Assembly (NCBI RefSeq): GCF_963576615.1
Contig: NC_088711.1
Location: forward strand, 15,733,869 to 15,797,868
Reading direction: 5' to 3'
Origin: Watersipora subatra
Lineage: Eukaryota; Bryozoa; Gymnolaemata; Cheilostomatida; Watersiporidae
DNA length: 64,000 nt
Within the stretch, counting starts at the first letter, position 1. Each line of letters opens with the position of its first letter. Below the pieces are notes generated by a model, which saw only the letters and a program-made list of their open reading frames with translations, had not been told where the DNA came from and searched no databases. A program made the translations under genes and the position numbers. Shown here one piece after another: positions 14,996 to 62,712 of this stretch.

Positions 14996-15451
14996 GTTAA
15001 AGTTGCCATAGAAATTTGAAAATGTGATACTTTTTACTTTCGTGGCAATTAATAGCCATATTGTCATTTGTTGGTTATTATTTTAATTGTGAGAGTGACA
15101 ATAAAGAAGTTTTTAGTATGCACCTAACAAGTTTTTGGCATTCAAATGTCTGCCACTAACAAACTTATTGTTTTTTATGGCTTAAGTTTGTATAATGTTG
15201 AAACAAGAAAAGGTTTGAAGACTTTGCATTTACACTTGTGATTTACACGGTGTGATATCGAATTCGTAGAGCCACAACTCTGAGAATGAATTCTCTGAGC
15301 CACGATTCGAATTCTCGAGCGTTTCAAATAGCCAAAAATTTGATATTTATTTTTTCAGTTATGTAGCTGTGAAAACAAGTAGCTAAAGTCGGGAGTTGTC
15401 TTTTTTATATATTCGGTCGACTGCTAAATGTCTATTGGAATACATACGTAC

Positions 15452-15482
15452 CAGTGTCGTATAGGGACATTATACGACACTG
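15452..15482. mobile_element. 31-bp P-element-type excision footprint with 8-bp TSD
   Basis: CAGTGTCGTATAGGGA (16 bp, identical to the start of the neighbouring P-like element) is followed by three bases and then TATACGACACTG (12 bp, identical to the inverted end). The octamer ATACGTAC flanks both sides (15444-15451 and 15483-15490). This is what remains if an element with these termini is cut out about 17 bp inside each end and the break is joined. Confidence 0.75.
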
Positions 15483-15554
15483 ATACGTACATACCTACAT
15501 ACATTAGTTTTATGTATAGCTCTATGTCGCGGGAAATTCCGGGGAATGCGAACG

Positions 15555-18350
15555 CAGTGTCGTATAGGGAGAGTTACGCCACCAACGGAGCCTATACAAA
15601 CGCATCGAAAGTTCCAAACAAACATCGGCCACGCCTACTTTTATATAGAGTTACAATGGACTGCACTTACCTGTCTTTGTTTATCAGTTAATAAAACTAC
15701 TTTGGGTAACCTTAGAGCACTATCAAGTATACCACAAGAAAGCTCAGGTTTTGCTCTAACTCACATAGCAGTTGTAAAAGTGACAACTTCATATTTACAG
15801 GTTTTCTGCTACTTCATAGTAAATACCTCCTATTATCTGCACTAGAATGTCTTAGCTAAATTGTGTTTACTTGCAATTTCACAACTTTGGGCGACCAAAC
15901 GAACAATTAAATGTATTCACAATGATAATTATATTATAATACCATCACTTGCCAATTTTTTTGTTCATAAAACTTATAAACAGGCTTGTTTTATGCAAAT
16001 TAATAGACAACCACAAATTTATTACGGACAATGATTTCAACTAAACGTGCAAGAAGTATGAGGTACAACATAAAAATTGAACAACTTTCCATAATAAAAA
16101 CTGAATACTAAAAGAGCATATTATACTACATAGAAAATCTTTCATAGTAATGTTACAATAAAAATTATTAACTTCAAATAAACAAGTCAAAGAAGCTAAG
16201 CTGTACTAGTACTATAGTAAGGTACGCCAACAAAGTATTTTGTGTGCAATAGCGGACTTACACATGTTTATAACATATAGAAATATAATACTAGTCCACA
16301 AGAATGAGTACAGTAAAAATGGAGAAAGCATCAAATTTCAACAACACTTAATGATGAATATTCTGAGCTAGTGTTCGCATGGCCATGCTTCTGCTACCAA
16401 ACTGCACTGATTGTGAGGCGGAGGTATGTTTTTTACATAAAATATGAAGTCTAACATTCACAAACTTTCTCACTAGCTTCTGCAATATAGGATGACAAGT
16501 GGGCAGCTCACATGGCATATCAATATTCTCCATGCATTTAGAAGCTATCAAAGTACCTATATGGTTGTTCTTAAGATGAGGTTCAAAGCTTCTCACGACA
16601 GACTCCCACTTTTTGAACAGAGCAAATGTGTCACCGGAAACTTCACACAAAGCACCCTCTTTAAAGTTTTTAAATTGCAGAAAACCAGACCTACAGTGCG
16701 GAACACCAGATGTGTTAGATAGGCTGGTGCAACAACCTTCACATACTTGCTTCAGCTTTAGCAAACTCTGTAGACAATAGCCAGCAAGATAGTATAATGA
16801 CTCTTCTTCTGCTGCGCTGATTTCCTCACGTGAAGCCAGAGGTACATCTATGAGCAAAGGCTCGGCAGTTGGTACTTCTATGGTAGATGGCAATAAATCT
16901 CCGAAGTACTCTCGCTCATCTTCTACATAGTTAGAAGCTTTGGTCGGTTTGAGATACTGTGCCACAGTGATCAGTTTTAAAGCATATTTAAATTCTCTAG
17001 CTGTAGGCACAGGACTCCTACATCTTACCGAGCTGAAAAGGTTCTCGATACAGTCTTGTGTCAACCTGGAGGTGAGTAAGAACTCCATGTTGTCAAGCAT
17101 GTCATCACAAATGTTGAGTATGGACCGTGTAGATAGGTGAATACCAGCCTGGACTGGCTTCCATGCATACTTGAATCCTATCCGCATTGACTGAACTATT
17201 TGTATGAAATCATCAAGAAATGAACGAGCATCTGCATAAGCGTCAAGTTTGTGTTTAGATAAAGCCATTACCGAATGTCGAGAGGACATCAAATCAAACC
17301 AATGATCGACTGTGTCAATAAACCAAGCCGTTGTCAAATACTCCTCAGATCTACCTTCCTTACTAACGAGGTATCTCAGAGCAGCACTAACAGACTTACT
17401 AAAGAGATGCATGGCATTCGCCACATTCATCTTGCTGAAGTGTCCTGTAGACGAGACAGTTTTATCAGACAGATTGGGTGCTAATTTTAAGTCTTTACCA
17501 GACTGGAATTCAAGAAGATCCAAAACATGGGCGAGTTTAATGCAGTTAAAATGAAGATTATGTTTTCTACAAATATCGTCAGCTATTGTAAAAACTTTAT
17601 GAGTGGCAAACGCATTTCTTAAATTTTTAATAACGTGAGGAACGTCAGCTAAGAAATGAAGTACATTACTTCCAGAATCCAACCTGTAATTTTCACATTG
17701 ACACTGTTTAAATAAATAAAATAATAAAAAATGACTCCGTTCACATAGGCCTGACACGGCTATGAATAAGTCTACAACTATCCTTAGCTTTCCTACTAAT
17801 CAGTTCAATATTAAACTTATAGTAATATCTAAAGCTATACAATTGCAAACACTAAAAACAACTTGAATCTTACCTGCCCACTTTAACAATCCACGCATTC
17901 CTTCTTTCAGGATCTTTTGGGAATTGAAAAACCTGTAGACCTAACTCCGATCTGCCTGAGCATCCCACAGCCCAACAATTAACCATTGTGATGAAGATAT
18001 TTAAATCACAATTAAATTTAAAATTATAAAAAATAAAGGGGAAATGTGTTGACGCAAATATCGAAATAACTCCACGCTGTGTGATGAACGGAACTTTGAC
18101 TTTAGCCTGGTGTAAATCTAACGAACTATAGATAAGGTGCTCGTGTTATACATGAAAAAAATCAGAAAATTCTGACGATCTTTGTGGTATATAAAAAGGC
18201 TAAGAAAATGGTGATTTCGACTGTGTTTAAGTCGTATTTATGATTCGATACCTTAATTTTCAGCAGAACTTTATATAGCAAAGCGAGTTTGTTTGGAACT
18301 ATCGAAAATGAGGTAACTCCAGTTGGCGTAACTCTCCCTATACGACACTG
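15555..18350 (-). mobile_element. P-element-family transposon, internally deleted (2,796 bp)
   Basis: The termini are 27-bp perfect inverted repeats (15555-15581 and 18324-18350) beginning CAGTGTCGTATAGGGAGAGT. The target duplication TGCGAACG is perfect at 15547-15554 and 18351-18358. An 8-bp duplication with a THAP-type transposase identifies the P superfamily. The gene runs on the minus strand: a THAP exon at 17874-17986 and a long 3' exon ending at 16348. Only about 190 bp separates them, too little for the missing middle of the protein. The intact ends and perfect duplication point to recent movement, presumably by transposase from a full-length copy elsewhere. Confidence 0.92.
16348..17986 (-). 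CDS. P-element (THAP9-like) transposase, middle deleted
   Basis: Exon 1 (17986 down to 17874) encodes MVNCWAVGCSGRSELGLQVF then QFPKDPERRNAWIVKVG. This is the first half of a THAP zinc finger with Cys4, Cys9, the FP pair and the Trp, but without the later Cys-x2-His ligands. It ends at GTAAGA in phase 2. The next open stretch is 469 codons (17757-16348). An acceptor at 17684 (ATTACAG) would join it in phase and give about 482 residues. The downstream part is the C-terminal half of a P transposase: LADVPHVIKNLRN (ORF residues 36-48) carries an Asp expected to be catalytic. TQDCIENLFSSVR (233-245) carries the catalytic-type Glu, and YYLAGYC is another family signature. Human THAP9 has 903 residues. 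The missing segment covers the rest of the THAP finger, the leucine-zipper region and the first catalytic Asp, so an active enzyme is unlikely. It may still be expressed as a truncated protein. Confidence 0.85.
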
Positions 18351-18358
18351 TGCGAACG

Positions 18359-23900: not shown

Positions 23901-26900
23901 AACCCATTTTGTAAACAAAATACTAAATAGGTATGCTGAGCATTAATTTGTTTTTACCTCTGTTCCATAATTAATGCTATTGTCTAATGCTGAAGGTAGA
24001 AAAGCTATACATTAAAATGTAACCTGTACAAATAGCTTAGCCGCATGTCATTTTCTGTAGTGGTTTTCTCAAGAAATTGCGTGTCGTCATCTCTTGTGTA
24101 AAGGCACCTTTAGTCAGTAATGTTACCCACTCTATCTGATCTTATGGGTTTATATTTTTCAAAGACAATTGAGGAAGGCTTTGCAAATTAGCTAGTTACA
24201 TAGTTACACATAGCCCAAAGTAGTCTATTGCTTATCATATTCCTCGGATGTATATCAGGCTTTAGTAATTAGTCGTTCGCACCAAATATCTAGTTGGTCC
24301 AATGACAGTTGTATGCATGTATTGCATAGACTAGATTTACTGTTTTTCCTCATTCTTCACGTCTTCATAAGTTATGATTATATGGTGGGCTTATGTTGTA
24401 ATCCTGTTCCTGGCATTTAAAATTTAATGTTTTTTAGTATTTTGGACCAAAGGAACATCAAAGTGTCTCGTGTTGTATATCAGTCAAAATATTTGGTTCG
24501 TTGTATTCTATAACCTGTGGTTCTAGGACTAACTTGCCGTTTGGATACAACCGAGCTCTTGGAGAAGAGGGTGAAGTCGCGATTTTCCCATCGGTATATC
24601 TACCTGACGGACCAAGTTGCATATCCAGAGCTTCAGTCGCTATTAGCCTTTTATTTGAAGCATTCCGAATCGTTGTGCAGGGCCAAAGGCTCGCTCGCGA
24701 CTCAGTGGAATAAAAAGATAGACCAGTTGCTGCTTGACCCACAGATTAAGGACTCTCTCTTGTTCCGCTTCAGCATATCTGCAGATATGAATTCGGTAAA
24801 ACAACTGGCAGCTCTTATCATTACTGCCTGTTCTCGGTCCCAAGCTCTACCAGATAATTCACACTTTCTTGAATCCTTTAAGATACTGGACACAGATCCT
24901 AAAGCCACCATGTTACAAGGTTTGTCATTTCACATAATCGCTAGCTTTGATGCGCTAGCCACTTCAGGTGCAATTGTCCTACATGACACTATTATCAAAG
25001 AGAGGATAACTCTTAGTTAAACATTATATTGTCAGCAAATCTTGTTATTAAGTGAGACCTTTCAGGTTCTGTCAATTGAGAAGCATATTTCTGCGTTTGT
25101 TCGTATTTCTCACAACATCCTGGTTAATAATGCTCTCTTATTGCCTTGGCTCCTATATTACACCCTGCATCTACTCAGAGCTGCCCTCAAATCATCTCAA
25201 ATCATGGTGATTTGAATATTCGAATATTTGAAACAAATCATATTGTACTGATTTGACACAATTGGTGATTTGATTTGAAAAGTTTGGGAAGTAACTTAAT
25301 TTGAAGTTTCAGGCTGATTTGAAGATTTGATTTGAAAACTAAATCAAATCACACCGCTACCTATAGCCTTGTTGTTTGTAACTGATCAAAATATTTTTAC
25401 ATCTGATATGCACGAAACTTTGGCAAAAAATACGCACCATTGATACTGAGGCTAAGCGCACGCGCAGGTTTCCCTCTACAGAAAAAAGAAAAGGACCGCG
25501 TGTCATGTCGAGTGTTTGGTAAAAGTGGCTTCACCATGAGGCCACACAAGAGCTCATTGACATCTGAAAACTTGTGCAAGCTAGTTTTTTTCTAAAATGC
25601 ATCTTGTGTACCCTAAGACACTTATGTATTCGCGGCATCTAACTTTCGCATTTTCGCGGCAACATCCTCTCGCGAAAATTTCATGAGTGAAACTAATCTA
25701 TCATAACGAACGAATCATAATGAGCGAAAACGCGAAATTAAATGGCTTTGTTCATTGATATTCACAATAAAATCGTCATATTAGAAATGCAGGCAAGTTT
25801 CGTGTGTGGTTGGCTCATTGGGCAATTTTTGCTAAACTCATTATAGCTAATACACCGACTGAGCAGCATGGCAAAACAAATTAAGATAATAAGTTTTTTT
25901 GGAAAAGCCTAGACAAATTAGGAAGATGATGATATTAGTTTAATCATTGAATTTGTAACTGATGAGGATGACAGTCTGGTAGGGAAAGTCATAAAATTGA
26001 ATAATAATTATTGTGGTGAGGAATTTTATTACCAACCAAAAGCAATAACAACCCGGAGCCATGGCCACCGCCTGCTATAAATACTTGAATTCTAATATTG
26101 GTACCACATAGGTCACTGCGGCAGGGACCTTGACGTCATTGATAGTCTAGGAAACAAATGGCAGCAAGCGATCAAATTGCATTATTGATCTCGCCTACAC
26201 ATTTCTACCTGCGGTTCACAAATAAAAACTACCGTACTTTTTGGACTATTAGCCGCTACTTTTTTCTAATGATTTGAGCCATGCGGCTTATATAAGGGTG
26301 CGGCTAATCTGTGGCTTTTTCTTTCACTGCTAGGGCGCATTAACGGGAATCTCCAATTAGTTTCTAGCGGTGAAAGAAAATACGAAACAATGCCTCACGG
26401 TACTGTCCGTTAGGCACTAAGTTAAAAAGCATCGGATAATACGAAACTGTGCCGTTCTGCACTGTTCCGTTTTAAATGGCAAAGTTGCTGCCACGTTAAT
26501 AAGCAGTCCTTAGTTCTGCGGCCTATACAAAGGTACGGCTTATGTATTGTTTTATTATAGTTTATTGGAAAATAAAGCAGATTCAGCTTATATAGAGGTG
26601 CGTTTTATAGTCCGAAAAGTACGGTAGTCCCAAATTGAAAAATATTTCGTACCAGTGAACTGGACCTGAGGAATCTAATGATGTTTGTTCCACTGCATTT
26701 ATTTTCACATCATTATATTTTCGCACTTATCAGAGCTACGAAATTAAGTTGCAGCGAAATTTTACTCTGTATGCTACTCACGAAACTAAATACTAGCGAA
26801 ATATAAGTGTCCTAGGGTATGTAAGTTATAGCTGTGCAATATGAGTTTTTTGCATTCCGATACAATATGCAATAAATATCTACGATATCAATATTCGATA

Positions 26901-43700: not shown

Positions 43701-43701
43701 G

Positions 43702-44020
43702 TTGTATCACTCAGTAGTTGTTAAAAGTAGTTGTATCACTCAGTAGTTGTATCACTCAGTAGTTGTATCACTCAGTAGTTGTATCACTCAGTAGTTGTAT
43801 CACTCAGTAGTTGTATCACTCAGTAGTTGTATCACTCAGTAGTTGTATCACTCAGTAGTTGTATCACTCAGTAGTTGTATCACTCAGTAGTTGTATCACT
43901 CAGTAGTTGTATCACTCAGTAGTTGTATCACTCAGTAGTTGTATCACTCAGTAGTTGTATCACTCAGTAGTTGTATCACTCAGTAGTTGTATCACTCAGT
44001 AGTTGTATCACTCAGTAGTT
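43702..44020 (+). repeat. 16-bp minisatellite, TTGTATCACTCAGTAG, about 18 copies
   Basis: Nearly identical 16-bp units run from about 43726 to 44017. One isolated unit precedes at 43702-43719. Both the isolated unit and the end of the array are followed by TTGTTAAAAGT. Confidence 0.95.
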
Positions 44021-44082
44021 GTTAAAAGTGAACTTGCACAAAATTTTGGTAGATTTTATTAAAAATTATCGAAATTTTTCTA

Positions 44083-61923: not shown

Positions 61924-61989
61924 GTAAGTCATATGTCGATAATTATTGTCTGAGACGTACATAGTAAGTTCTTGATAATTGTTCTCATC

Positions 61990-62712
61990 AGTTACACTAG
62001 ACGCAGTTTCGCTAGACGCAGTTGCGCTAGACAACTGTTTCGCTAGACGCAGTTACGCTAGACGCAGTTACGCTAGACGCAGTTACGCTAGACGCAGTTA
62101 CGCTAGACGCAGTTACGCTAGACCCAGTTACGCTACGCGCAGTTACGCTACGCGCAGTTACGCTACGCGCAGTTACGCTACGCGCAGTTACGCTACGCGC
62201 AGTTACGCTACGCGCAGTTACGCTACGCGCAGTTACGCTACGCGCAGTGACGCTACGCGCAGTTACGCTACGCGCAGTTACGCTACGCGCAGTTACGCTA
62301 CGCGCAGTTACGCTACGCGCAGTTACGCTACGCGCAGTTACGCTACGCGCAGTTACGCTACGCGCAGTTACGCTACGCGCAGTTACGCTACGCGCAGTTA
62401 CGCTACGCGCAGTTACGCTACGCGCAGTTACGTTACGCGCAGTTACGCTACGCGCAGTTACGCTACGCGCAGTTACGCTACGCGCAGTTACGCTACGCGC
62501 AGTTACGCTACGCGCAGTTACGCTACGCGCAGTTACGCTAGACGCAGTTACGCTAGACGCAGTTACGTTAGACGCAGTTTCGCTAGACGCAGTTACGCTA
62601 GACGCAGTTACGCTACACGCAGTTACGCTACACGCAGTTACGCTAGACACAGTTACGCTAAACACAGTTACGCTAGATACAGTTACGCTAGACACAGTTA
62701 CGCTAGACACAT
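61990..62712 (+). repeat. 15-bp minisatellite, about 48 copies, CGCTACGCGCAGTTA
   Basis: Units of 15 bp fall into blocks. The left edge has GCTAGACGCAGT, the centre about 28 units of CGCTACGCGCAGTTA, the right edge CGCTAGACGCAGTTA again and then CGCTAGACACAGTTA. A few single-base variants are visible (for example near 62249 and 62431). The period is a multiple of three and the unit has few stop codons, so frames of 176-247 codons stay open on both strands; no gene is inferred. It starts about 66 bases after the exon end at 61923. Confidence 0.95.

Follow-up and report, generated by a model that had tools for sequence, protein, structure and literature searches.

Does a 31-bp sequence in the genome of the bryozoan Watersipora subatra mark the place from which a P-superfamily element has departed, and, if so, did the family of the related element that lies 72 bp away leave it there? 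Excision scars of P elements are known from fly experiments; the series described here is a natural one of dozens of scars, with empty sites for some of them.

The 31-bp sequence and its neighbour

The sequence, CAGTGTCGTATAGGGACATTATACGACACTG, occupies positions 15452-15482 of the window (the whole 64,000-nt stretch analysed), and its parts, read as the remains of an excised element, are as follows.

15444..15451, plus strand: left 8-bp target duplication, ATACGTAC, of the excised element
15452..15468, plus strand: left tip of the excised element, 17 nt, CAGTGTCGTATAGGGAC; 16 nt are common to the neighbouring element, and base 17 is C, not G
15469..15470, plus strand: join between the tips, AT
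15471..15482, minus strand: right tip of the excised element, of which 12 nt are kept, TATACGACACTG
15483..15490, plus strand: right 8-bp target duplication, ATACGTAC

The first 16 bp (a 16-mer with 0 matches in viral contigs) equal the left end of the neighbouring element, at 15555, and the last 12 bp equal its right end, at 18350. The original prediction had described a two-tip unit of 31 bp between perfect octamers, 72 bp from a P-like element, and its coordinates, ends and target site duplications (TSDs) were all verified. Besides the parse given above (17 nt + AT + 12 nt), the sequence can equally be read as a product of the type found at L041, L051 and L065, three loci of the series described below; the join in these reads AC, and the window sequence differs from them by a single C-to-T change at its 19th base. 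Both tips stand in inverted order between identical 8-bp duplications at this locus, as expected of an excision footprint. Since the window TSD lies within an ATAC-rich tract, it is by itself weaker evidence than the TSDs elsewhere.

The neighbouring element has the following features.

15547..15554, plus strand: left TSD, TGCGAACG
15555..18350, minus strand: P-superfamily element, 2796 bp, an internally deleted copy of a 5497-bp family
15555..15581, plus strand: left terminal inverted repeat (TIR), 27 bp
15605..15623, plus strand: left subterminal inverted repeat, 19 nt, with its partner at 18287-18305 (95%)
16981..17064, minus strand: TNP-like RNase H C-terminal piece (Pfam, 20.3 bits, under the cut-off of 24)
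17269..17637, minus strand: TNP-like GTP-binding insertion domain (2.5e-13)
17667..17669, unstranded: internal deletion junction, with 2701 bp missing relative to the full-length copy L009 and a 2-bp overlap
17873..17977, minus strand: first part of a THAP domain (21.3 bits, under the Pfam cut-off of 23.9)
18287..18305, minus strand: right subterminal inverted repeat
18324..18350, minus strand: right TIR, 27 bp
18351..18358, plus strand: right TSD, TGCGAACG

The two TSD copies form a perfect 8-bp pair, a feature absent from the original prediction, and the two 27-bp TIRs match perfectly. An alignment of the window copy (minus strand) to the Drosophila P transposase (PDB 6p5a; 1.7e-11) spans the region 17269..17637 and beyond, and no RNase H N match was found in this copy. 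In the 784-Mb assembly, the left end of the element has at least 39 other matches at 94-100% identity (40 of 271 candidates scored). Twenty of these 39 copies were fetched, and both ends were resolved in 19 of them (L025 was dropped): 14 are flanked by an exact 8-bp TSD, L012 and L022 show one TSD mismatch, L014 and L027 have duplications of 9 bp and 7 bp (flanks read by eye), and L020 has none. The full length of the family, 5497 bp, is that of L009, which carries RNase H N (PF21787, 3.6e-13) and the GTP-binding insertion (PF21788, 3.5e-13), together with three matches under the Pfam cut-offs, one to RNase H C (20.1 bits) and two to parts of THAP (21.3 and 17.0 bits), and aligns to 6p5a at 4e-21. 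Membership of the P superfamily is thus indicated by the transposase domains of L009 and by the 8-bp TSD of the window copy. Because the window copy is about 99.9% identical to L009 apart from the internal loss of 2701 bp, and because L009 carries P-transposase domains, the neighbour is, judged from these sequences, a recent, internally deleted P-superfamily copy. In addition, related full-length copies are up to 99.96% identical (L014 to L009), which suggests that a P-like system was very recently active in the same genome.

A genome-wide series of two-tip loci

A search for further two-tip scars between 8-bp duplications, which had been proposed as a check of the excision reading, was productive. 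Over 784 Mb, a pattern that asked for 12 nt from both tips and a spacer of 0-30 bases matched 38 loci, against 0 for the reversed control pattern. The loci are 29-53 bp long, and exact 8-bp duplications flank 25 of them, or 30 when one mismatch is allowed; the other eight have no TSD within one mismatch. As a control, the left 8-mer of one locus was compared with the right 8-mer of another: six of 1406 such comparisons were exact, the number to be expected since one repeat accounts for L042, L049 and L060 (the individual pairs are not itemised), and shifts of 1-4 bases gave 0 exact matches in eight comparisons. Four loci were left out of the analysis of tip edges, namely L049 and L060 as repeat copies of L042, and L057 and L058, which share a 41-bp palindrome without TSD and were rejected as scars. 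Among the remaining 34, 23 have exact TSDs and 28 have TSDs within one mismatch.

Most of the 38 loci have the left tip GGGAC, and the reading GGGAG at bases 13-17 occurs at one, L043. Since base 17 is C in the window scar and G in the neighbouring family, a difference that the original prediction did not weigh, this family is probably not the source of the scar; it was rejected as the maker, and the claim that one and the same family had both inserted and excised here is not supported by the comparison of GGGAC with GGGAG. With GGGAG at a single locus, the neighbour's young family left at most that trace in the search. The 2.8-kb neighbour probably belongs to a related family that inserted here recently and independently, and is not the departed element.

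How much of each tip was kept was read from the 20 scars of at least 34 bp (40 tips), which were used because their two tips cannot overlap; bases 13 onward lay outside the search pattern, and up to 27 bases were allowed per side. Pairwise agreement among these tips is 0.86, 0.95, 0.73, 0.64 and 0.69 at bases 13-17 and 0.27, 0.26, 0.33 and 0.23 at bases 18-21, and it lies near chance throughout bases 18-22 (0.23-0.33). Base 17 is C in 33 of the 40 tips, a cleaner count that supersedes the 58 of 68 tips over all 34 loci, a figure inflated by the overlapping tips of 31-bp scars. In the 40 tips, at most about 17 nt appear to be kept per end, and the window scar keeps 17 and 12. One may argue that the units are extreme internal deletions from interrupted gap repair, with ends that were never rejoined as tails; interrupted repair shrinks P elements, and the neighbouring copy is itself internally deleted. 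Such deletions would stop at any distance, however, whereas the agreement stops at 17 nt although tips of up to 27 nt were allowed, and we regard this origin as highly improbable.

The junctions of the series are heterogeneous, as expected of end joining, with 33 of the 38 sequences distinct and with varied fillers. L041, L051 and L065 consist of 17 nt + A + 13 nt, while other joins combine two full 17-nt tips (base 13 being free) with T, AT, CC, ACTG, GTGTC or a longer fill. L083 and L093, which belong to the single-tip places described below, are 21-bp products of 17 nt + ACTG followed by the TSD. Seventeen fillers measure 4 nt or more; their longest matches to tip or flank sum to 109, against 68.4 in shuffles, and seven of the 17 reach p<=0.013 and ten do not, including the long fills of L044 (p 0.87) and L040 (p 0.98). 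The joins appear to have formed by microhomology, short fill or tip-copied fill, and the longer fills often seem to copy tips.

The commonest length is 31 bp (11 of 38), and the 31-bp scars include two sets of three identical sequences, L041/L051/L065, whose exact TSDs are unlike each other, and L034/L050/L053, in which the TSD of L053 has 2 mismatches. Moreover, an L041-like unit hosts a later insertion in L106, and L142 is one base from L041. These observations would suit a stand-alone miniature element of 31 bp that transposes by P transposase with its own TSD, and the recurrence of the form leaves some weight for it. Nevertheless, we consider such an element improbable: 27 of the 38 loci differ in length and have dissimilar centres, some with inserts copied from tips, the 17-nt edge would be left unexplained, and the same 31-bp outcome arises with the base-13 tip variants G, A and T, as a favoured repair product would give (L053 and L062, with A and T, lie at one common site and may be a single event). 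The finding of the 31-bp unit at many loci, which had been named as a result that would speak against excision, is real as far as the 11 loci and the two identical triplets go, but these are placed among many unlike scars, and one favoured repair product fits the recurrent form better than a mobile repeat. It is just as improbable that a subset of the 31-bp units is truly mobile, as excision products that keep enough tip for pick-up in trans; we know of no smaller cut-and-paste elements than these would be. In the D. melanogaster P element, transposition and excision need at least 138 and 216 bp of the ends (PMC1562414).

The dozens of heterogeneous scars with TSDs, the 17-nt edge and the empty sites in repeat copies described below fit excision, fit a mobile unit poorly and support the excision footprint that had been predicted. 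The 31 bp in the window are very probably the excision scar of a P-superfamily element, probably one of a lineage other than the neighbour's. In the mechanism that we propose, a P-superfamily element with tips CAGTGTCGTATAGGGAC would have inserted at ATACGTAC and duplicated it, as the anatomy of the locus and, at other loci, the comparison with empty sites suggest. Its transposase would later have cut in P style, at the 3' ends of the element and about 17 nt inside its 5' ends, leaving each chromosome end with a 17-nt 3' tail of element sequence; both steps draw on the 17-nt edge and on Drosophila biochemistry, in which the cut stagger of the P transposase is 17 nt (PMC7776569). The tails would then have been end-joined, with 17 nt from one side, 12-13 nt from the other and A or AT at the join. 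The resulting scar should be immobile, since the more internal end sequences required by P elements are missing from it.

Shared sites, empty sites and the putative source element

One and the same site of a repeat is occupied by a 31-bp scar in L034 and by a 48-bp scar in L040; the TSD is GGATAACT, with one mismatch in L040. Four repeat copies were read at this site, from a family with 2902 first-look candidates, 40 of them scored. L149 and L150 have an uninterrupted GGATAACT site with just one copy of the octamer, which is altered at one base in L149; L147 and L148 have no scar either, but other short insertions. L047 has the same left flank as L034 and L040, with a third two-tip sequence, an unrelated right flank and no TSD seen by eye. 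In another repeat, L032 and L042 lie 10 bp apart, and each is the empty site of the other. Empty sites with a single 8-mer were thus found both for the GGATAACT site and for the L032/L042 pair. A third shared site holds L053 (31 bp), L062 (31 bp) and L044 (47 bp), and the flanks of L066 are similar. A 36-bp scar with the TSD GCTGTATA has been amplified inside yet another repeat family (L068 and 36 other carriers) and has the same length in all 37 carriers read, which comprise 3 of the 38 loci and, among the single-tip places described below, 19 of the first set of 40 and 15 of the second set of 20. As this scar multiplied within the repeat, its excision predates the spread of the repeat.

Where one site has different scars, either several copies of a single filled site underwent excision or a favoured site received separate insertions. 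Excision is required in both cases, except if an old scar had been remodelled at its centre. This last possibility would give each repeat family one ancient palindrome, with a centre remodelled by template switching and no independent excision, and it would account for the several scars with different centres at one repeat-family site (L034/L040; L053, L062, L066 and L044). However, when flanks were compared within the series, 24 of the 38 loci matched no other member at E<=1e-4, most loci have TSDs of their own, and neither the 17-nt edge nor the constant length of the amplified 36-bp scar in 37 of 37 carriers agrees with it. We consider it the least probable of the explanations weighed here, and the scars are better read as products of excision.

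The departed lineage was sought with the 17-mer CAGTGTCGTATADGGAC, which has 115 genomic matches, against 4 and 0 for controls. The GGGAC tip matches read comprise 60 single-tip places, in a first set of 40 and a second set of 20, and those inside the 38 loci, 95 of the 115 in all. No intact long element with GGGAC tips was found among these 60 places. In the first set, besides the 19 carriers of the amplified 36-bp scar and L080, a TSD-like octamer stands within 200 bases downstream in 18 of the 20 others (12 exact, 6 with one mismatch); it is lacking in L066 and L070, and L095 is a copy of L093. In the second set, besides the 15 carriers, an exact octamer was found at L141 and L142 and none in the short stretch read at L135, L143 and L146. 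L076, L081 and L087 contain inserts and span 156-190 bp.

L080/L106 was considered as an intact sister element with GGGAC tips and rejected, given that the 20 other copies of the L106 element that were read are without this tip and nearly all start at CATTGAACTT or a one-letter variant. L106 is therefore an CATTGAACTT-ended element inserted, with the TSD AGGGACAC, into a 31-bp scar. The element occupies the reverse strand of L106 at 201-2991; inspection by eye showed a THAP-like reading frame in it, and the host scar has a TSD of its own, GTCTCGTG. In L081 (417 bp), a CAGAGCC...GGCTCTG miniature element sits inside a scar with the TSD GGGACACT. At L015:6200-6318, an older CAGTGTCG scar contains a 32-bp palindrome of CATTGAACTT tips that is flanked by copies of CGACTCTC and itself resembles an excision scar. 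These three nested cases hint at a preference, among elements that duplicate 8 bp of target, for insertion into palindromic scars.

Relation to known P systems

In PMC2895639, the footprints of P{wa} in D. melanogaster are like the scars here: Table 1 gives products composed of a TSD, a tail of up to 17 nt, microhomology or a short and in some cases templated insertion, a second tail and the other TSD, and some products recur many times, 14 recoveries being given for some of them. Those footprints were induced in the laboratory, in spn-A mutants in the case of Table 1, whereas the scars here are fixed in the assembly, have another tip sequence and have no intact source in the places read. The neighbouring family shares with the Drosophila P element and its transposase (PDB 6p5a) the 8-bp TSD, TIRs of about 30 bp and subterminal inverted repeats and, in L009, the RNase H domain with a GTP-binding insertion, the THAP matches being weak; it differs in its full length (5497 bp, against 2.9 kb in Drosophila) and in its tips (CAGTG, against CATGATG).

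The zebrafish element Pdre2 is likewise a non-insect member of the P superfamily with an 8-bp TSD and is excised by zfTHAP9, but its TIRs are 13 bp; in S2 cells, the flanking deletions left by zfTHAP9 exceed those of the fly transposase (PMC10983969), whereas the scars here keep their tips. P-MITEs of Anopheles gambiae are also short P derivatives, but PMC1562414 describes them as holding less than 100 bp of P sequence per end and as having very high copy numbers, whereas the scars here keep about 17 nt and are distinct at 33 of 38 loci. No survey of natural P scars was found in the open-licence literature searched. The present series, left by an element lineage without an intact copy in the places read, makes two questions testable from sequence alone: whether the 17-nt P stagger is common beyond the fly element, and whether the germline end-joining route runs through microhomology or templated fill, as is the case with Drosophila polymerase theta.

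Elsewhere in the window, there are two tandem arrays, at 43701-44022 (16-bp unit, 20.3 copies) and at 61989-62705 (15-bp unit, 47.7 copies). An open frame at 24514-25020 has five protein matches that carry PF14629, which we take to be the C-terminal domain of ORC4, and the frame is presumably an ORC4-like exon.
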